IMG/VR virus record: IMGVR_UViG_3300030118_000433
Span: 1-22,901 of that record
Reading direction: 5' to 3' (one strand)
Source: a virus
Length of the DNA stretch: 22,901 bases
The notes beneath the pieces were generated by a model. The model did no database searches. It was not told where the DNA came from and saw only the letters and a program-made list of their open reading frames with translations. Shown piece after piece: positions 11,232-22,133 of this stretch. Both the position numbers and the translations under genes were made by a program. Within the stretch, counting starts at the first letter, position 1. Every line of letters begins with the position of its first letter.

Positions 11232-11268
11232 ACCCTCTCTTTTTAACTTGTTTTGTTATTTGACTCAT
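11086..11268 (-). CDS. Small basic ORF overlapping the lipoprotein gene
   Basis: This ORF has 60 residues and starts at an ATG that overlaps the upstream stop as ATGA. A GGTGGA stretch lies about 8 nt upstream. It is basic, Arg/Tyr-rich (EYDRRVQSRVERSGLRNN) and has no membrane segment. Most of it (11086-11231) runs out of frame with the signal-peptide-bearing ORF. Either both are translated, like embedded Rz/Rz1-type pairs, or this short ORF mainly carries ribosomes up to the TTG start of the lipoprotein. The protein is not recognised. Confidence 0.35.
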   Translation of the reverse strand: MSQITKQVKKRGFEVVSTSYGIPVVYEYDRRVQSRVERSGLRNNTARYGYKYSIYRGYGS

Positions 11269-11555
11269 AGCACTATCCACCATGCTATTGCAGTTTCTAC
11301 TACAATATCAGCAAGGGTATTATATGCCCATCTCTTTTTACTGCCATACGGCTTCCAATTTTCTATGTAATACTCAAACACTTCCCAAAGAACACCAATA
11401 ATAAATACTCCCATCACACACCAGAAATCAGTCCATCCCCACCACTGAAAAAGCTTACAAAGAAATGCACCAGCGGCTAAATGATAAGCTGTCCAGCCAT
11501 CTAGTTGACCAGTTTCTTTTTGCCAAGTTACTAAATCAGTTAAGGGACTTTTCAT
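11265..11555 (-). CDS. VanZ/DUF2238-like small integral membrane protein
   Basis: This protein has 96 residues. I chose the ATG at 11555, not the in-frame ATG at 11609, because GGAG lies 7 nt before it and the longer form would overlap the upstream gene by 22 nt. There are two or three membrane segments (about residues 24-36, 42-62 and 80-96). The intervening motif WEVFEYYIENW, with Glu58 and Glu61, and the later NTLADIVVETAIAWW resemble the 'E..E...D...N...D...N..G' pattern of VanZ/YjdF-type membrane proteins. It heads the run of small membrane genes. A phage-encoded envelope-modifying or holin-like role is possible; the sequence does not decide. Confidence 0.6.
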   Translation of the reverse strand: MKSPLTDLVTWQKETGQLDGWTAYHLAAGAFLCKLFQWWGWTDFWCVMGVFIIGVLWEVFEYYIENWKPYGSKKRWAYNTLADIVVETAIAWWIVL

Positions 11556-11587
11556 CTTTGCTCTCCTTTTTAATCTCTCTGTCCTTC

Positions 11588-11896
11588 TTACCCTCTGTAA
11601 GCTATGCATACTGCTGTAGAATCTGTATGATTTACAATACCACTAAAGTTTCCATACAGTATCTCTCCGGGTATCAGGTTAACAAAGGAACTAATGTCAT
11701 CACCTATATTAGATGTTGCTTTTATTTTAAGAAACTCAGTCGTACCACTAGAGTCTTTACCTAATGCCTGTATAGCAATCCAAGAACCTGTATCTGGATT
11801 GACAACATTGGTATCATGCTCTGCTATAACATCAAAACCATTCTGACCTATTAGTAAATTGGCGGCCTCTTTCTGTGTGTATTTGTAAAGACTCAT
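11588..11896 (-). CDS. Small beta-rich structural-like protein
   Basis: This protein has 102 residues. It opens with a helical segment (YTQKEAANLLIGQNGFDVI), then strands with Gly/Asn turns (GSWIAIQALGKDSSG, FLKIKATSNIGDDISSF, EILYGNFSGI) and ends AVCIAYRG. The pattern 'AI.A.G.D......ATS.IGDD......PGE.IYG.F' resembles small capsid- or fibre-associated proteins found in marine phages. The start overlaps the upstream stop by 1 nt (TAATG). It has no signal peptide or catalytic motif. A decoration or fibre-accessory function is inferred only from composition and its place downstream of the fibre gene. Confidence 0.55.
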   Translation of the reverse strand: MSLYKYTQKEAANLLIGQNGFDVIAEHDTNVVNPDTGSWIAIQALGKDSSGTTEFLKIKATSNIGDDISSFVNLIPGEILYGNFSGIVNHTDSTAVCIAYRG

Positions 11897-12090
11897 TACT
11901 TAGAACCAAACACCTTTGAAAAGAAACCTTTCTTCTTATTCTTCTTGCCTTTGTTTTTAAGCTTTTTACCTTTCTTCTTTTTTTTCTTCTTTATCTCTTC
12001 GCTCATCGCCAACTGGTCGTATTGAAAAGAATCAGAAGGCGTGCCACCTATAAAAGAAAAAGCAATTAAGAAAGCCATTATCTTTTTCAT
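11896..12090 (-). CDS. Exported-looking Lys-rich small protein
   Basis: This protein has 64 residues. The N-terminus (MKKIMAFLIAFSFIGGTPS) looks like a short signal or anchor sequence with no lipobox cysteine. After a short acidic linker (residues 20-33) the rest is almost entirely Lys with Gly, Phe and Ser (from IKKKKKKKGKK onward), ending FFSKVFGSK. A shortened SD (AGGT) precedes the ATG. If exported, it would place a strongly cationic tail in the periplasm. If not, the Lys tail could bind nucleic acid. It is the only Lys-rich gene in this block; the seven others cluster at 18546-20051. The family is not recognised. Confidence 0.5.
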   Translation of the reverse strand: MKKIMAFLIAFSFIGGTPSDSFQYDQLAMSEEIKKKKKKKGKKLKNKGKKNKKKGFFSKVFGSK

Positions 12091-12092
12091 AT

Positions 12093-12542
12093 CTATACCT
12101 TTATATGTTTTGAGACTTCTTCATCTCCAGCCATCATTGGAACTATCCTTGACAACAACTCTGATTTAGTTTCTGAACTAGAGTATGAAATACCTCGTTT
12201 ATCGTAAAAATCTTGTATCTCTGCTTTTGTATTATCCATCGTAGGATAATCAGACTGTGACGTAGCCACACAATTAATAAGATGATGGTGTCCGGGGTCT
12301 AATCTGCCATGACCTCCACCATGACTATCGTCACATTCATCAACATAAGCCTGTTCAATCGTTGCCCAACTATTACTTCTTTGAACAACTTCACCATCTA
12401 CTACTAAAAAATATTTATATCTAGAAGGATAAGTCAGGGTCTCAGTCGTACCATCTGCGTATGTTTTTTTCCTAGTAACACCGGGAGTGCTGTTTCTGTA
12501 TAGTCGTAAGTAATGACCCTGAGAACTTTTCCTTATAAGCAT
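12093..12542 (-). CDS. Hypothetical protein with C-terminal HeH/LEM-like motif
   Basis: This protein has 149 residues. The N-terminal half is beta-rich (YKYFLVVDGEVVQRSNSW). A central Cys/His cluster follows: Cys70, His74 and His78 with GGGH, His85-87 and Cys91, which could bind a metal. Residues about 102-133 (NTKAEIQDFYDKRGISYS, then SETKSELLSRI) match the two-helix HeH/LEM/SAP-like pattern 'TK.EI..FLD..GI.Y....TK.ELL..I'. Such a motif often occurs at the end of phage structural or adaptor proteins and can bind nucleic acid or protein. The start overlaps the upstream stop by 1 nt (TAATG). The overall function is unknown. Confidence 0.6.
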   Translation of the reverse strand: MLIRKSSQGHYLRLYRNSTPGVTRKKTYADGTTETLTYPSRYKYFLVVDGEVVQRSNSWATIEQAYVDECDDSHGGGHGRLDPGHHHLINCVATSQSDYPTMDNTKAEIQDFYDKRGISYSSSETKSELLSRIVPMMAGDEEVSKHIKV

Positions 12543-12766
12543 TAGTCTTCTTTAACCTCTTCAGATTCTAATGATTCTTTCAACATCTTAACAAATGCAT
12601 CGTGACCTACTCTAAGCTGGTCTGCAATAAATCCATTAGATGCCTGTTTGTTTTGTATGTCGTTTATATGATTTACCATCATCTTCTGTTCATCAGTTAA
12701 GTCCTCAATGATATACTCTTTACCATCAAGATTAATAACTGGCTTTTCTTTTTTTTCTTTAGCCAT
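12542..12766 (-). CDS. Small DUF6447-like hypothetical protein
   Basis: This protein has 74 residues. The phrase INLDGKEYIIEDLTDEQKMMV (near residues 11-31) followed by a helical N-ending stretch matches the 'I.IDGKEY.l.dLSDEaK...' start of the DUF6447-type family that recurs beside phage fibre genes. The C-terminus is acidic (ESLESEEVKED). A clear AAGGAG lies a few nt before the ATG, directly downstream of the 12-codon Cys-rich ORF. It probably forms one cassette with the neighbouring 86-residue and 149-residue proteins. The biochemical role is unknown. Confidence 0.6.
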   Translation of the reverse strand: MAKEKKEKPVINLDGKEYIIEDLTDEQKMMVNHINDIQNKQASNGFIADQLRVGHDAFVKMLKESLESEEVKED

Positions 12767-12784
12767 TATTGACTCCTTGTTTAG

Positions 12785-12823
12785 TTAACAATTACAATCT
12801 TTACATTTACAGCATTTACACAT
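12785..12823 (-). CDS. Micro-ORF encoding Cys-rich peptide MCKCCKCKDCNC
   Basis: This is a 12-codon ORF with stop TAA, and six of its twelve residues are cysteine (MCKCCKCKDCNC). GGAG (bases 12830-12833 on the complementary strand) lies 6 nt before its ATG. The ATG falls one base after the stop of the 86-residue gene, and the next gene has its own AAGGAG 3' of this ORF. The spacing therefore treats it as a separate cistron. Clustered CXC/CC motifs separated by Lys and Asp are those of metallothionein-like or iron-sulfur/zinc-binding peptides. No known family was recognised, and translation is inferred from the start context. A translational spacer is the alternative. Confidence 0.6.
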   Translation of the reverse strand: MCKCCKCKDCNC

Positions 12824-12824
12824 T

Positions 12825-13085
12825 TTATTCTCCAGATTCTTCTTCTGGTTCAAATTTACTATCTTCATACGCTTTCTTAATTTCATCTGTCCACAATGCA
12901 TTTGCCAATGCTTTTAATTCATCAGACTCACCGCTTACATCTGCATCTGGCATAAATGCCTTTCTATGGTATGAATATGATATTTCTTTACCATCTTCCA
13001 TTATAGATGTTTTACAGCGTTCTTGAATACATTTGTATTCTCCACGCACTTCATAATCGTATGTTTTCTTTTTTTCTAAAGCCAT
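12825..13085 (-). CDS. Conserved small protein downstream of fibre gene
   Basis: This protein has 86 residues. A beta-rich N-terminus (KTYDYEVRGEYKCIQERCKT) leads to the block EISYSYHRKAFMPDADVSG (near residues 34-52). A helical segment (ELKALANALWTDEIKKAYED) and an acidic tail follow. The 'sy.HR..fMPD.DVSge...v.alc.a.wTdEv..AY' pattern is one I recognise as a recurrent small family next to tail or fibre genes of marine phages, with no assigned function. A good AAGGAG lies 7 nt upstream of the ATG. It is the first gene after the fibre, so a fibre-assembly or accessory role is a reasonable inference. Confidence 0.65.
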   Translation of the reverse strand: MALEKKKTYDYEVRGEYKCIQERCKTSIMEDGKEISYSYHRKAFMPDADVSGESDELKALANALWTDEIKKAYEDSKFEPEEESGE

Positions 13086-13107: not shown

Positions 13108-13125
13108 CTTAATTATCCAATTAAG
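13108..13125 (-). other. AT-rich hairpin at the fibre stop codon
   Basis: The sequence contains a perfect 7-bp inverted repeat, CTTAATT / AATTAAG, with loop GGAT (minus strand). It spans the fibre gene stop codon and the first part of the short gap before the next gene. No U-tract follows, so it is not a classical terminator. It could mildly stabilise or delimit the fibre mRNA 3' end. Confidence 0.25.
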
Positions 13126-16100
13126 CATCTAAATATGTGAATGTCAAAATAAGATTGTTACTTGCTACATCTATATCATCGTATGTAAGTCCAACTCTAT
13201 CTCCAGTTGCATTTGTATAATAAAATCCTATATCATCTGTACTAGAAACTGTTAAACCATATTGCATAATATTGCTTGTAAAGTTTGTTCTCCTAAATAC
13301 AGCTGGAACCATATGGAACGTATTTGCTGGTATGGCAAAAGGTAATCCTGAAATCTGAACTCCATCTGTTCCTCCGCCATCATTGCTAAAAGCAATGTAC
13401 AATGATACAGTTACCACATTTCCTACTTTTGTAAAATCATTTACATAAGTGGCAGATATTGTTGGAGCGTGTCCACTTGCACTAACAAAAGTTGGTGTCC
13501 AAGTGCCTTCTTCGTAGTCATCAAGAGTATTTGCATTTGCATCTGGTAAAGCATTATTAGGTGGAAACTTTACACCAGCACAATGAATAGTTGCTTCTCC
13601 ATCTTGCGCCATTAAGACATCAGTTATAGAAGAATTACCAATTACTGCTACGTTATCATTTGAAGAAACAGCATCTTTACCAATGGCAATTCTGTTTTGT
13701 GCATCATTTGCACTAACATTTGAATCTCTACCGATACAAACATTGTCAAATCCTGTTGTTAATGTACTACCAGCATCTGCTCCTATTGCTACGTTCCTAT
13801 CACCACTAACTACTGCACCCAATGAACCATAACCAACTGCTGTATTTAAGTTTGCACCATTCATAGCACCATCTAGTGAATAGTTACCAATACCTACATT
13901 GTACTGACAAACTGCTGTAGTCCAAGTTCCACCACCAGCGTGGTATCCCATAAATGTGTTATCATTAGAATCTAATACAGTTGCTCCTCCAGTTCCATCC
14001 ATTGCTTGGTAGCCAACTACAGTATTCCTTGCACCAGTCGTATGACCTTGTAGAGCTTGATATCCGATTGCTGTATTTCCAGCTCCAGAGGTTAACGCAG
14101 TTAAAGAATTGTAACCTACAGCAATTGTGCCTGTTATAGTATTTGCACCAGTGCTATTCATAGCATTAGCACCTATGGCAACAGAACCAGACATTGGCCC
14201 AGCTCCACCAAACCCAGCATTTGAACCTATAATAACATTTGCATCAGCACTGGCGTGATTAATATTTATACCAGCTTCTTTACCAATTACAACATTATCA
14301 GACTCACCACTATCTGCATTTTTTAATGCGTTGTATCCTATTACAGTATTATTAGCCCCATCTGTTTGGTAAAGCATTGATTCAAAACCAATAGCTACAT
14401 TTTTTTCTCCAGTTGTCAAGCTGTATAAAGACTGAAAACCTATAGCCACTGTTCCGTCTGGGGCACCACTATCGCACTGTCTAAGTGCACCTGAACCAAC
14501 AGCAACAGCACCTTGTAGATTTCTTGCTCCAACGCCTTGCATAGCCTCAAAACCTACTGCTACGTTATTGTCAAATGCAGAGTTATTTGCAATTCTACCA
14601 GCCCTGTGTCCTATTAATACATTCCCAGTGCTTCCAGAATCTGCTATTGCATTACCAGCTTGGTATCCAAATAGCGTATTGCTTGTACCACTATCACTAT
14701 TACTTAGTGAGATTCTGGAGTTGGAATCAATTCTCATACGTTCAGTACCAGAAATCAGAAACTGTTGAGTTAAGGCATCTAACCTAAAATTCATATAGGC
14801 ACTTGCTGTTCTGTCATAGTTGGTAATCCTATTAGTATCTGTAGCAATTTCTGGTTGTAGTTCAATCCCAGCATTGCCACCATCAGACACGACTAACTTT
14901 GCTACTGGATTATCCGAACCTATACCCAAATTTCCTGACGAACTAAATCTTGAAACCTCTGTACTACCAATTAAGAATCTAATAGTTTGACCAGTATGAC
15001 TTGCAAGTTTTACAATTCCACCAGAACCATCTAATGAAACATTTGTACTTACATCAGAATCATCTAATCGTAGTAGTGGTGTTGAATTACTTATAAATAT
15101 ATCACCAGCAAAAGTAGCCGATTGATCTGAACCCAAGGTAAGTGCAACAGTAGCAGAGCCACCAGATGGTGTTGTGGCAAATTTGAGTACACCATCATCT
15201 TTATTAGAAGTATCTGCACCACTAAAGAATCCCATATATCCAATAAGAGTGCCATTCCATTTACCAAGCATTGTACCTATACCAGCATCAGCACTTGACC
15301 TATTTGCATCAATTGTAATTGCATTTCCAGTGTCTCCAGCACTGTGGATGGTTATACCTTCATCTCCAGAATCTGCTTCAATATGAAGGTTATTTGTGGG
15401 AACTGCACCTATACCAACTTGTTGATTAGAGTCTATTACTACTGCATTTGTTAAAGAACTGCTCCCACTTGCTCTTGTAAAAAATCTTATCTCTGAAGGA
15501 ACTGTGCCATCTGAGCCAGCTACAATATCTGTTGTTTTTGTATATGGGGAACCACTATCTGATTGGTATGAAGTAAGAAATAAACCAGCACCAGTAGATG
15601 AGTATGTTTTATCTGCTGTATTGCCAGATTCAAATAATTTTACATTACCAGCAACGTGTAGCTTTTCCTCTGGGCTTGTTTTATTTATACCAAAATTCCC
15701 TGACGAATCCAAAGTCATATGAGAACTTGAACCACTTCCACCTATAAAACTTAATTTGCTATTGTTAGTGCCTATGCTACCTCTAACAACACCACTTCCG
15801 CTTCCACCTCTTTTAAATTGTAAAAATTTTGAAGAATCTTCAGACGAACCTATAGATATATTACCAGTTGAATGGTCAATTGTAAATCTTATTTGAGATG
15901 TATCTAAAGCATCATTAATTGTGTCTATTCTAAATAAACCAGTTTGTTGTCGTACAAGTGTATTTAAGTTGGTAGTATCAGATTCTGTAAATAATATATC
16001 ATTTCTTGTACCAGTAATTGTTAATACTGGAGTAGTTCCAGAAGCATTAACAATAAAGTTATCTCCGACCTTTACTTGCTCATTAGTTGTATCCACAACC

Positions 16101-16423
16101 ATTACATCTGTTCCATCATTCTTCTCTACTAAAAATGCAGAAGTAGAATTACCAGAATCTGATTTTACATGAAGGTCTCCATTAACTATTTCATCGTAAG
16201 AGTTAGTTGCACTACCATTAACAGTTAAGTCTCCAGATATAGTTACATCACCAGAGATCGTACCTCCGGCTAGAGACATATTTAATCTGTTGTTTGTAGT
16301 ATCTAAAACACTGTTTAGTGCTTCTTGTGAGGTTACTGAGTTTGCCGTGACGGCGTTTCCTGAAGAGTCTAGAAGTACTTTGTTTAGAACTTCCTTAGCG
16401 GTGAATTTATTTGGGTTTGCCAT
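13121..16423 (-). CDS. Tail fibre/spike with YadA-head-like repeats
   Basis: This 1100-residue protein is the longest gene of the middle block. The N-terminus (FTAKEVLNKVLLDSSGN) is followed by GDVTISGDLTVNGSATN near residue 60, a stalk-like segment typical of phage fibres. The middle has repeated 'F..SGN.GIG...P..KL.V' fibre modules. Residues about 582-931 hold about 20 copies of a degenerate N-x-A-I-G-x-x-A-L unit (for example NTAIGYQAL, NVAIGFESM, NTVVGYQAM). This is the beta-roll unit of YadA/Hia-type trimeric adhesin heads. A C-terminal module begins at LDDYEEGTWTPTF (about residue 964). No intramolecular chaperone (peptidase S74) domain is present. It probably trimerises and binds the host surface. 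Confidence 0.85.
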   Translation of the reverse strand: MANPNKFTAKEVLNKVLLDSSGNAVTANSVTSQEALNSVLDTTNNRLNMSLAGGTISGDVTISGDLTVNGSATNSYDEIVNGDLHVKSDSGNSTSAFLVEKNDGTDVMVVDTTNEQVKVGDNFIVNASGTTPVLTITGTRNDILFTESDTTNLNTLVRQQTGLFRIDTINDALDTSQIRFTIDHSTGNISIGSSEDSSKFLQFKRGGSGSGVVRGSIGTNNSKLSFIGGSGSSSHMTLDSSGNFGINKTSPEEKLHVAGNVKLFESGNTADKTYSSTGAGLFLTSYQSDSGSPYTKTTDIVAGSDGTVPSEIRFFTRASGSSSLTNAVVIDSNQQVGIGAVPTNNLHIEADSGDEGITIHSAGDTGNAITIDANRSSADAGIGTMLGKWNGTLIGYMGFFSGADTSNKDDGVLKFATTPSGGSATVALTLGSDQSATFAGDIFISNSTPLLRLDDSDVSTNVSLDGSGGIVKLASHTGQTIRFLIGSTEVSRFSSSGNLGIGSDNPVAKLVVSDGGNAGIELQPEIATDTNRITNYDRTASAYMNFRLDALTQQFLISGTERMRIDSNSRISLSNSDSGTSNTLFGYQAGNAIADSGSTGNVLIGHRAGRIANNSAFDNNVAVGFEAMQGVGARNLQGAVAVGSGALRQCDSGAPDGTVAIGFQSLYSLTTGEKNVAIGFESMLYQTDGANNTVIGYNALKNADSGESDNVVIGKEAGININHASADANVIIGSNAGFGGAGPMSGSVAIGANAMNSTGANTITGTIAVGYNSLTALTSGAGNTAIGYQALQGHTTGARNTVVGYQAMDGTGGATVLDSNDNTFMGYHAGGGTWTTAVCQYNVGIGNYSLDGAMNGANLNTAVGYGSLGAVVSGDRNVAIGADAGSTLTTGFDNVCIGRDSNVSANDAQNRIAIGKDAVSSNDNVAVIGNSSITDVLMAQDGEATIHCAGVKFPPNNALPDANANTLDDYEEGTWTPTFVSASGHAPTISATYVNDFTKVGNVVTVSLYIAFSNDGGGTDGVQISGLPFAIPANTFHMVPAVFRRTNFTSNIMQYGLTVSSTDDIGFYYTNATGDRVGLTYDDIDVASNNLILTFTYLDA
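13629..14680 (-). repeat. Degenerate YadA-head-like repeat array inside the fibre gene
   Basis: About 20 units of roughly 14-22 codons each carry the core N-(T/V)-(A/V)-(I/V)-G-x-x-(A/S)-(L/M/G). They include NTLFGYQAG, NVLIGHRAG, TVAIGFQSL, NVVIGKEAG and NTAVGYGSL. The DNA has diverged between units, so the repetition is at protein level. Unit length varies through short insertions between cores. The array covers fibre residues about 582-931. Confidence 0.75.
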
Positions 16424-18545: not shown

Positions 18546-18866
18546 CTATTTCTTCTTTCTTCTTCTTACAGTTTTTTTCTTTGCTGTTTTCTTTTTACCA
18601 CCACGAATTAAATCTGCATCTGCTTTTCTAGCACCACCTTTACCAGTAGCAAAACTTCTTACTCTGCCAGCGGCCCATTGATGTGCACTGACTCCGGGCC
18701 TAGAACCACTAGAGTAGTATGCACCCAAGCCCCTAGAGTAAACCTTAGATAGTGTACCCTTAGATATTCCAGAGCTTTTGGAATACTTAGCAATCACAGC
18801 GGCTTTACTACCGCCTGCTTTTCTTTTTGGCTTTGCTTTTCTTTTTACTGCTTTTTTTCTTGCCAC
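18546..18866 (-). CDS. Highly basic DUF5824-like protein
   Basis: This protein has 106 residues from a GTG start, fixed by a strong AAGGAGT just upstream (spacing about 4-5 nt). A Lys/Arg-rich N-terminus and C-terminus flank a conserved core: GISKGTLSKVYSRGLGAYY (33-51), SRPGVSAHQWAAGRVRSFA (55-73) and DADL. This matches the DUF5824 pattern 'GvsK.tl..v..RGlaAw.tgHRPGas..qWa.aRV.SFl.G...  D.DL' as I remember it. It overlaps the upstream 78-residue gene by 59 nt. DNA binding or packaging of the capsid interior is a plausible role from charge, but the function is unproven. Confidence 0.65.
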   Translation of the reverse strand: MARKKAVKRKAKPKRKAGGSKAAVIAKYSKSSGISKGTLSKVYSRGLGAYYSSGSRPGVSAHQWAAGRVRSFATGKGGARKADADLIRGGKKKTAKKKTVRRRKKK

Positions 18867-19044
18867 TTTTACTCCTTTGCTTAGAGATCATATCCATCAT
18901 CGCAGGTGTCAATGCACCCTCTCTGTACATTTTTCTAGTTCTTAATATCTCGTCTTGTGTCTTCTTTTTATTCTTAGAACCTCTTACATACTTCTTAGGA
19001 ACGCCTCTTTTAGTCTTGGGTACTTTTTTAAATTTTCTTGCCAC
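18808..19044 (-). CDS. Lys-rich small protein with TPAMMDMISK motif
   Basis: This protein has 78 residues from a GTG start, with no obvious SD; translation is probably coupled to the upstream gene by a 17-nt overlap. It is strongly basic throughout. The core GVPKKYVRGSKN (14-25) and ALTPAMMDMISKQRSKS (44-60) resembles a recurrent phage pattern 'vPkkY..gak.......Ei..t...Y..G.LTpamMd.IsK.RsKs'. I cannot give a firm family name. The C-terminus is Lys/Ser repeats. It overlaps the downstream DUF5824-like gene by 59 nt, which is long for this operon. A DNA-binding virion protein is a plausible guess from charge. Confidence 0.55.
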   Translation of the reverse strand: MARKFKKVPKTKRGVPKKYVRGSKNKKKTQDEILRTRKMYREGALTPAMMDMISKQRSKSGKKKSSKKKSKAKKKSRR

Positions 19045-19345
19045 GCTTACTTTTTTTTCTGTTGTTAGCTCTTCTTATAGCTTCTTTACCTTTTTTAAAT
19101 ATTTGAACCTGAGTTCTTTTACCTGCCACTTTCGATCTTTGCTCACCAACTGTTAGTATTTGTATCTTTCGAGCAAAAGGTTTTCTAATTCTTTTTACTT
19201 TTGCAACAGTTGCTCTAGCATCAGCAGGAGTTGCATATTTAATCCTTACAGTATCTTTTGGGTTCTCATCAGTATATAATCTTCTTCCACTACCCTTTGG
19301 TTTTTTACCAGTACCTACTTTCGGATCTTTCTTTTTTCTAGGCAC
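19028..19345 (-). CDS. Basic DUF5872-like protein
   Basis: This protein has 105 residues from a GTG start that overlaps the preceding stop by 1 nt (TAGTG). The core contains KKPKGSGRRLYTDENPKDTV (14-33), ATPADARATVAKV (38-50), PFARKIQILTVGEQRS (56-71) and KKGKEAIRRA (84-93). This matches the pattern of DUF5872 as I recall it, including the GSgRRLYTDenPkDTV opening. It is Lys/Arg-rich at both ends. No catalytic residues are evident. Its position in a chain of tiny basic genes right after the head genes suggests a virion-internal or DNA-associated role, but this is inference. Confidence 0.65.
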   Translation of the reverse strand: MPRKKKDPKVGTGKKPKGSGRRLYTDENPKDTVRIKYATPADARATVAKVKRIRKPFARKIQILTVGEQRSKVAGKRTQVQIFKKGKEAIRRANNRKKSKRGKKI

Positions 19346-19467
19346 TACTTCTTAATCTTTTTAATCTTTCCGTTTTTTGTTCTGGCAAACTTATGGGTTT
19401 TAGTTTCTCTTATCAATGTTCCATAGTGTTTTTTACCACCCCACATCCAACTAACTCTTTTAGCCAT
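19345..19467 (-). CDS. 40-residue basic micro-protein
   Basis: The protein is MAKRVSWMWGGKKHYGTLIR followed by ETKTHKFARTKNGKIKKIKK, 40 residues ending at TAG. It starts at ATG, overlapping the previous stop as TAATG, and its own stop overlaps the next GTG as TAGTG. It is thus fully coupled at both ends. Aromatic (Trp7, Trp9, Tyr15) and basic residues are mixed. No family was recognised. Composition and coupling make it a credible gene even though it is very short. Confidence 0.55.
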   Translation of the reverse strand: MAKRVSWMWGGKKHYGTLIRETKTHKFARTKNGKIKKIKK

Positions 19468-19553
19468 TACTTCTTCTTTTTCTTACCCATCTTTTTCTTT
19501 TTTTTCTTCATCATCTTTTTCTTACCACCGTAAGCAGATTTACCATGTTTCAT
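19467..19553 (-). CDS. 28-residue polylysine micro-protein
   Basis: The peptide begins MKHGKSAYGGKKKMM; the remaining 13 residues are Lys apart from one Met and one Gly. It is 28 residues in total, 16 of them Lys. The ATG follows the upstream stop by 1 nt. Its stop TAA overlaps the next ATG by 1 nt (TAATG). Such a short Lys-rich chain could condense DNA or bind the capsid interior, as protamine-like peptides do. It could also be a spacer. A run of eight A residues in the mRNA may slip and change the reading frame. Confidence 0.5.
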   Translation of the reverse strand: MKHGKSAYGGKKKMMKKKKKKMGKKKKK

Positions 19554-19554
19554 C

Positions 19555-19725
19555 TTACTTTCCTTTTTTCTTTGTGTTGGAATGAGTCATTTGAACTTTA
19601 AAGCTTGCCATAAGACTTGATCCCTTATGTGCCTTATATCCACCTCTAGGGTTCTTCATTAATTTAAAACCACTACCAGACTTCATCCAGTGATATCCTT
19701 TTGGTGCTTTTACTTTTTTATTCAT
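19555..19725 (-). CDS. 56-residue basic small protein
   Basis: The protein has 56 residues, beginning MNKKVKAPKGYHWMKSGSGF and ending MTHSNTKKKGK. Its ATG overlaps the stop of the DUF6321-like gene as ATGA (4 nt). It ends 1 nt before the polylysine micro-gene. The segment KGYHWMKSGSGFKLMKNPRG resembles the start of several short marine-phage proteins ('APKGyHWM..g..kLMk'). The protein is basic, with a phage-like spread of Gly, Ser and Met. No enzymatic motif was found; a structural or DNA-associated role is likely only by context. Confidence 0.6.
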   Translation of the reverse strand: MNKKVKAPKGYHWMKSGSGFKLMKNPRGGYKAHKGSSLMASFKVQMTHSNTKKKGK

Positions 19726-20051
19726 TTCTTCCTCTTCTTTTTAGCTTTATTTCTTTTGCTAATAGCCTTTGCCTTTCTCCTTGCATCCGCTTTTGAACTA
19801 GCACCCCACGCTCTCAAAGACAAAAGTAACCGTGTGGGCTTACCATTCTTTCTTTCAGGCCCCGGCATGTTACCCATCCTAGCAAGGAAACTAGCCCTTC
19901 TAGGATTGTCACCAGACTTAACAGGAGCTTTTAATTTTCCCCCTGTCTGTCTATTGTAACTGGCCCTACCCTTAGCGTTTAACCCACCTTTAGGGTTCTT
20001 GCCTGCCTTTCTTTGCCAAGCAGGAGACTTACGCTTTTTCTTAGCTGGCAT
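19722..20051 (-). CDS. Basic DUF6321-like protein
   Basis: This protein has 109 residues. The core GGLNAKGRASYNRQTGGKLK (22-41), then RRASFLARMGNMPGP (51-65), matches DUF6321, a small family ('KGGLneKGrrsYnre.g..LkaPv......rr.SFcaRm.gm') known from phages and bacteria without a defined activity. Basic tails flank the core (KKKRKS at the start, KRNKAKKKRKK at the end). It starts at ATG with an 11-nt overlap with the zinc-ribbon gene, and it ends in an ATGA overlap with the 56-residue gene. It is likely to bind nucleic acid or lie inside the virion; this is inferred from charge and neighbours. Confidence 0.65.
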   Translation of the reverse strand: MPAKKKRKSPAWQRKAGKNPKGGLNAKGRASYNRQTGGKLKAPVKSGDNPRRASFLARMGNMPGPERKNGKPTRLLLSLRAWGASSKADARRKAKAISKRNKAKKKRKK

Positions 20052-20759: not shown

Positions 20760-22133
20760 TTACACCCCTTCTAGGTTAAACAGTGCGTGTGACTCAGGAA
20801 GAGTAATCTCTAAACCAGCTTCGGTTAAGATCATATCTTTTCTTAAATCCTCATCAGCCGCCTGTACATTAGTCATAACCTGAGTGTCACGATTGATACC
20901 GTTACCAATTAATGGACGATAAGCAAGCTGTGTCATATCAGCCATGAGCATAAACCCAGATGCAATTCCTCTAAACAATGGCTCTTTGACAAGGTTCAAC
21001 TTTCCGTGAATGGTATCAATCACCATTACAGAATGTCCGAAAGCACCTTCTCTTGAATCAAAGTTTAGTCTGAAAGGCATGTTGTTTGAAGATCCGATAG
21101 ATGCATCAAGAAACGCACCATCACCTAACTTGTTAAAGAATGTAATGACTGGTAAACTACATAGTACTAGCTTCTCTGCCATCCCACCTCTAGCTGGATC
21201 AAAAATAACTTCAAGATCACTGAGTAATCTATCGTATGTTAATTCAGCTTGTGCAACACTACGATGATATGCATTTCCAGAAGAATAGGAAAGTGCAGAA
21301 TCATCTGTTACTGGTGACACATTCTTTACAATGTGACCGACTAGACCTTCAGAGTACTGGATACCACCTACACGAGCTTTTTGACCAAAGAGCATAGCTC
21401 TTTCAATGTCAATCTTGTGCTCACGCAGTTTGGTAGCCCAGATACGATTCCACTCTTCAGCATACCCACGATAGCGAGTTGCATAAGCAGTGTTGGTCAT
21501 TTCTGCCGCTGTTTTAAAAATCTGGGTGTACCCAAAGTCATCTTCTATTTCAGAAGAGAATACATCGGGGGAACCAGAACCTTCTTCATAGGAAGTACCT
21601 ATGATTTGAGCTACGTCATTATCAGCTAAAACATTACTTCCGCTGACAGCAGACACATCAATTATTTTACCAGTAAATGATGAATCAGCACTTGCATGAC
21701 TTACTCCTGACTCTACTCTAACTAATGCCTGACCGTATCCGTCTGTGTCGTCTTTCGTTCCGATAGCCAAGACCATACCTTTTACTAGGTATTCGACAGC
21801 GGCTCCACCAGCAGTATCAACAGTAAATGAATACGAAGAACCTGCGGAAACAGCGGAACCACTATTTACAGCACCTTTAAGAAGCAAGGAGCGATCTGTA
21901 AAACTGATTCGGTTACGATTTTCTAAATAACGGAACACTGGGTCATCGGTAGGTGCTTTAGCAACCTGATTTAGATAGACGAAAAATGGAGATTCCTCTG
22001 GAACCAACTCGGCAACTCTGTCGCCGAAATTAAATATTCGTCTTCTATCCGGTCTTTGACCTACACTAGCATCAGAGGTAGTAGCAGTAATATCACTGGA
22101 CTTTAATACTCCAGAATTGAATGATATTGCCAT
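20760..22133 (-). CDS. Major capsid protein
   Basis: This protein has 457 residues, the size and place (immediately after a scaffold-like gene and before a decoration-like gene) of a tailed-phage major capsid protein with an HK97-type fold. The N-terminal arm includes GQRPDRRRIFNFGDRV (25-40) and ESPFFVYLNQ (47-56). The C-terminal part (HGKLNLVKEPLFRG, ADMTQLAYRPLIG, RKDMILTEAGLEITLPESHA) follows the pattern seen at the end of SU10/DUF5309-like capsid proteins: '..g...v....f.......LD...v.lr.l.g.......K...ltE.gL.i.n..A'. AAAGGT lies before the ATG. Highly expressed structural genes usually have such good start contexts. The family within the HK97 fold is uncertain. Confidence 0.8.
   Translation of the reverse strand: MAISFNSGVLKSSDITATTSDASVGQRPDRRRIFNFGDRVAELVPEESPFFVYLNQVAKAPTDDPVFRYLENRNRISFTDRSLLLKGAVNSGSAVSAGSSYSFTVDTAGGAAVEYLVKGMVLAIGTKDDTDGYGQALVRVESGVSHASADSSFTGKIIDVSAVSGSNVLADNDVAQIIGTSYEEGSGSPDVFSSEIEDDFGYTQIFKTAAEMTNTAYATRYRGYAEEWNRIWATKLREHKIDIERAMLFGQKARVGGIQYSEGLVGHIVKNVSPVTDDSALSYSSGNAYHRSVAQAELTYDRLLSDLEVIFDPARGGMAEKLVLCSLPVITFFNKLGDGAFLDASIGSSNNMPFRLNFDSREGAFGHSVMVIDTIHGKLNLVKEPLFRGIASGFMLMADMTQLAYRPLIGNGINRDTQVMTNVQAADEDLRKDMILTEAGLEITLPESHALFNLEGV

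Follow-up and report, generated by a model that had tools for sequence, protein, structure and literature searches.

A candidate 12-codon cysteine-rich gene of uncultivated phages, with signs of selection on its product and a possible metal-thiolate role

Metallothioneins, roughly 25-70 residues long, are among the described systems that the peptide considered here resembles, as half of its residues are Cys, with CxC and CC spacing and with Lys beside Cys. A check of metallothionein features found 6 Cys in 12 residues in the arrangement CxCCxCxxCxC and no hydrophobic core residues besides Met1. The peptide differs from metallothioneins in being one unit of 12-16 residues, in being encoded by a phage micro-cistron and in that its metal binding is a prediction, and we do not claim family membership for a 12-mer that lies below the 20-residue length that homology tools need. 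A second precedent is the polycysteine uORFs of mycobacteria, which are leaderless, very short, bound to particular downstream genes and proposed to act as cysteine attenuators (PMC4633059). Our ORF is likewise very short and rich in Cys codons, and its version in SAR86 bacteria has a leaderless-type start. However, its downstream gene is not fixed, a recurrent operon for Cys biosynthesis was not seen and RNA structure is lacking, and the phage ORF lies inside an operon, 0-1 nt behind another gene, and not at a leaderless 5' end. Instead of a fixed place before Cys-metabolic genes, the ORF was found 5' of at least 13 different gene families in phages and of 29 in SAR86. The leaderless layout is matched by sequence in SAR86 (-10 box, SD in 3 of 61 loci) but not in the phage ORFs, the one studied here included.

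CruR (DUF2946) is a copper-sensing uORF tied to particular downstream genes (PMC9426467), with a product of >140 aa, CXXC and RAPP arrest motifs and a spacer of 162 bp in B. pertussis (PMC9426467, PMC9973294). With the CruR/CutF uORFs our locus shares a Cys-containing ORF 5' of other genes and a possible metal sensing; it differs in its 12 aa, its changing neighbours, its spacer of only 18 nt and its lack of an arrest motif, the peptide ending in ..DCNC. Small genes overlooked by ordinary annotation, as this one is, have also been catalogued in phages and microbiomes (PMC11323111, PMC11364881). Cysteine peptides and metal peptides go unmentioned in the phage small-protein review, as does cysteine in the catalogue paper; the catalogue's ORFs, which start from 30 nt, may hold such peptides.

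The DNA that we analysed (the window, 22,901 nucleotides) had been given a preliminary description in which a 12-residue, half-Cys peptide was noted with no strand. An ORF check on the window letters confirmed this peptide on the minus strand, where 12823..12785 reads ATGTGTAAATGCTGTAAATGTAAAGATTGTAATTGTTAA, that is MCKCCKCKDCNC and a stop, with 6 Cys in 12 residues; the plus strand of the same coordinates yields LTITIFTFTAFTH. All features given here for the window are on the minus strand. The ATG follows after 1 nt the stop of an 86-aa gene (12825..13085, phrog_6228, function not known), and an 18-nt gap separates the end of the ORF from a 74-aa gene (12542..12766, phrog_21153, DUF6447-like below the Pfam cut-off), which has its own ribosome binding site (AAGGAG, 12773..12778). 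In these respects the preliminary description was borne out. It had also pointed to a well-placed GGAG and read from it a designed slot. A GGAG does exist 6 nt 5' of the ATG (12830..12833), but it is not placed for the Cys ORF: it forms part of the codons that end the upstream gene (TCT GGA GAA TAA) and is kept in an empty-site relative, L575, that has no Cys ORF, and therefore it does not speak for a designed slot. The stop-to-start distance is 0 or 1 nt behind three different upstream genes, although the SD differs; besides the 86-aa gene these are an S74-chaperone fibre protein and a small protein (in L084/L104). Since the distance stays constant while the SD changes, reinitiation is indicated, and the spacing speaks for termination-reinitiation no less than for SD-led initiation.

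Two genes upstream of the ORF lies a long tail-fibre/spike-like structural protein (13121..16423, 1100 aa; phrog_4636 tail spike, E 2.2e-23), and a major capsid protein of the SU10_MCP family (20760..22133; PF17236, E 3.7e-25) identifies the window as tailed phage. Between the capsid and tail genes there are four small, very Lys/Arg-rich proteins of no known function (18546-20051). Searches for a close isolate phage of the window and for tRNAs, as a clue to the host, found none. Relatives of the phrog_6228 protein occur in pelagiphages, cyanophages and others, and those of the 74-aa protein, among isolates, only in Roseobacter phages. A 42.9-kb relative with the Cys ORF carries terminase, portal and DnaB-like helicase genes, as well as a protein of the amidoligase family whose N-terminal region is Cys-rich (L541, 240-1361). 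A Lys-rich KKGFFSKVFGSK protein (11896-12090) and a GWTxYHLAAG protein (11265-11609) of the window are also found in another phage contig, of 126 kb, where they adjoin that contig's own Cys micropeptide, which suggests a shared gene pool or host.

To sample the slot independently of its content, loci were fetched via the downstream or the upstream gene, so that the peptide itself did not select them. The Cys ORF was present in 20 of 79 loci fetched by the downstream gene and in 19 of 72 fetched by the upstream gene (some loci are shared between the two sets, and in a few cases the contig ends within the slot); the remaining slots were empty. In the comparison of L575 with the window, the upstream 255 nt are 94% identical and the downstream 70 nt identical, and exactly 36 nt (12789..12824) are missing between these matching flanks. 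The preliminary description had named relatives that keep the ribosome binding sites and lose the ORF as evidence against a gene. This is what we found in most relatives of the window phage, but as a clean 36-nt absence and not as decay, and frameshifted or stop-broken relics were seen in neither neighbour-fetched set. Among the records of 20 relatives, 5 had one exact copy each, in the slot region, and the remaining records had no copy anywhere beyond two-mismatch noise. One contig (L293/L616) has a deletion by which the reading frame of the upstream phrog_6228 protein continues into a C-terminal KCCKCKDCNC. It is the sole fusion seen, and C-terminal fusions as a class were rejected, as the matches from the Cys-pattern scan without ATG were noise.

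The 13 neighbour-selected 12-codon alleles differ by 3, 1 and 8 changes at codon positions 1, 2 and 3, respectively. By our count about 7 of the 12 changes are synonymous, as compared to 11 of 99 possible ones (p ~1e-4, or ~1e-3 when transitions are given double weight; these values are indicative, as the sample is small and the sequences are related). The Cys codons are retained, with drift between TGT and TGC, AAA and AAG, and AAT and AAC, and nonsynonymous changes affect the residues between the Cys (K/N/D at position 6, D/N/E at position 9). One intact allele is without the last Cys (MCKCCNCKDCNN), and two versions have 14 residues (MCDCKCCKCKDCNC, MCDCKDCNCKECNC). Thus the excess of synonymous over nonsynonymous change relative to expectation, which the preliminary description had proposed to look for, is found across the alleles.

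Recurrence in viral DNA was assessed against chance. The exact peptide, in any codons, was found in 14 other IMG/VR contigs, and in every one of them a gene of the same 74-aa family begins after it. The pattern MCxCCxCxxCxC with its ATG occurred in at least 119 viral contigs, versus 12 for a reversed-pattern control; the same Cys pattern without a preceding ATG gave 120+ noise-like matches, mostly without start codon or SD. Prevalence from such pattern scans is a lower bound. The viral DNA fetched via phage IscU, 381 kb in all, contained one Cys-rich micro-ORF, the already known copy of L024. Blastn of two peptide DNAs and of two whole pelagiphage records gave no convincing copy in isolate phages, and searches of open-access papers for the peptide strings, SAR86 cysteine-rich peptides and SAR86 leaderless genes found none.

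Real-looking copies were parted from chance by clustering the neighbours of 100 viral candidates. The real-looking ones are packed between genes, nearly all with SD (about 5 without), with gaps to the next gene of mostly 9-19 nt, and they precede at least 13 unrelated downstream gene families. Chance-like were 19 candidates without adjacent genes, 18 of them without SD. Related phage ORFs of 12-23 residues, including MCKCCKCCTCTCPECN, MCSCCKCCNCNCC, MCTCCKCCNCTCC, MCKCCKCCNCTCCE, MCNCCDCCDCGCGCKS and MCDCCGCETCVCPPECPDCGCNS, occur in several phage lineages with different gene sets, and relatives have 8 Cys in 13-16 residues. The 23-residue relatives matched no Pfam model up to E 10. In another phage lineage (L069, L096, L121), a relative of 23-25 residues, (MV)MCDCCGCETCVCPPECPDCGCNS, lies upstream of a likely terminase gene. 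L024 (3577-4359) has an operon of MCKCCKCCNCTCCE, IscU (NifU_N) and an A-type Fe-S carrier; a link to Fe-S assembly was rejected, as no Cys micropeptide was found near IscU in the other 79 fetched phage loci and the adjacency in L024 is taken as incidental. Taken together, the ORF with its Cys pattern and spacing is conserved in related phages, which supports the independent cistron proposed in the preliminary description and, as judged from the DNA, argues that the 12-codon gene is real and under selection in phages that are uncultivated and for the most part marine.

A scan of bacterial genomes gave, besides chance matches, 61 loci with MCDCCDCCECSCCSK-like ORFs, mostly titled SAR86. Here the ORF is chromosomal and encodes 14-15 residues. 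It is apparently monocistronic (L135-L252; for example L137, 4924-4971, plus strand), patchy and absent from the other Gammaproteobacteria sampled. The strict 13-codon form was found in 69 of 199 SAR86 genomes, nearly always as a single copy, and the reversed pattern gave 0 matches; a one-mismatch pattern was too noisy for use. Only two of 369 genomes drawn from the class matched, and both are also in the SAR86 sample. When the loci were aligned at the ATG, nearly all 61 had a TATAAT-like -10 box at -12 to -7, the bases between this box and the ATG were mostly free and an SD was seen in 3 loci. Such an arrangement is what a leaderless mRNA would show, and the SAR86 gene therefore appears to be leaderless, with a transcript predicted to start at the AUG. 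TGT and TGC vary among the copies, and the next same-strand genes, taken over 51 loci, fall into 29 families. In 26 of the 61 loci a MerC-type membrane protein (PF03203) is encoded within 4 kb, which hints at metals and may perhaps reflect shared synteny only. The peptides of phages and SAR86 may share a function or an ancestry, or they could be convergent.

Our favoured reading, to which we give about an even chance, is that of a selected micro-gene in a structural operon, whose free 12-residue product would act in trans as a metal-thiolate binder. The phage ORF would be translated within the tail-fibre/structural operon, probably late, by initiation or reinitiation at the ATG 1 nt past the upstream stop. 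The product, with its Cys in CxC/CC spacing and Lys, Asn and Asp between them, would wrap a thiophilic metal ion or a small metal-thiolate cluster (Zn2+, Cu+ or similar) and serve as a buffer or carrier of metallothionein type with one cluster, comparable to half of a metallothionein domain. It would be useful in some strains and be gained or lost as a 36-nt unit. Action in trans is favoured by the varied neighbours, the lack of RNA structure, the different initiation modes and the downstream ribosome binding site, which is intact with or without the ORF. Metal-thiolate chemistry is the most likely because of the half-Cys composition, the Cys spacing and the residues in between, and a metallothionein-like or Fe-S role is plausible.

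The peptide may instead work in trans through its thiols or a partner and not through a metal, as a redox buffer, as a partner for disulphide bonds during the assembly of fibres or virions, or as a host-directed effector. A half-Cys peptide is also a strong thiol reductant, copies sit in structural or fibre regions both of the window and of several further lineages, and in L293/L616 the upstream protein continues in frame into the KCCKCKDCNC tail. Thiol-redox or partner roles and metal binding look alike to sequence tools. However, the Cys spacing is found again next to unrelated partners as well as in the monocistronic SAR86 genes, which a metal site fits better, and we consider a purely thiol or partner role unlikely, though it keeps something above a fifth of our confidence.

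The main rival is a leader acting in cis, in which the run of Cys codons would sense tRNA-Cys charging or redox/metal state and ribosome speed would set translation of the next gene. There are precedents for such leaders, proposed for the mycobacterial uORFs (PMC4633059) and demonstrated for CruR (PMC9426467), the SAR86 copies look leaderless as do the mycobacterial uORFs, and the phage ORF lies directly 5' of a gene, at 18 nt. These points must be set against the variety of next genes in both phages and SAR86, a downstream ribosome binding site that is unchanged where the Cys ORF is absent, and annotated neighbours among which cysteine biosynthesis is not recurrent. Furthermore, the short phage gaps hardly fit an attenuator, and there was no RNA structure beyond that of shuffled sequences (z -0.8 for the window, mean z -0.25 for SAR86), on which ground an RNA attenuator was rejected. 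We therefore give a cis-acting leader about one chance in five, and regulation of neighbouring translation, also raised in the preliminary description, is disfavoured, as the neighbours vary. A non-coding origin, as a DNA or RNA element (a recombination junction or structured RNA) or a chance ORF, would agree with a short indel at the edge of a variable fibre region, but is very improbable given the third-position drift with Cys codons held, the dependence of the Cys pattern on an ATG, the SD/reinitiation context in phages versus the leaderless one in SAR86, and the absence of RNA structure.

Genes of 12 codons fall below the cut-off of ordinary gene finders, and here one such gene shows selection on its product and occurs next to many unrelated neighbours, with a look-alike in the abundant ocean bacteria of SAR86. 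This illustrates that real genes of this size can be found by DNA-pattern search with a reversed control combined with neighbour-based sampling. If the peptide does bind metal, it would come close to a minimal natural metal-thiolate site, cheap to make and test, and phages would have a new route to handle metals or thiols during infection. Possibly, and with somewhat less than even confidence, it belongs to a widespread unannotated family of 12-16-residue metal-thiolate peptides in several phage lineages and SAR86, whose genes, monocistronic and leaderless in SAR86, would be among the shortest protein-coding ones known with a product acting in trans and would serve viruses in metal or thiol management during infection.
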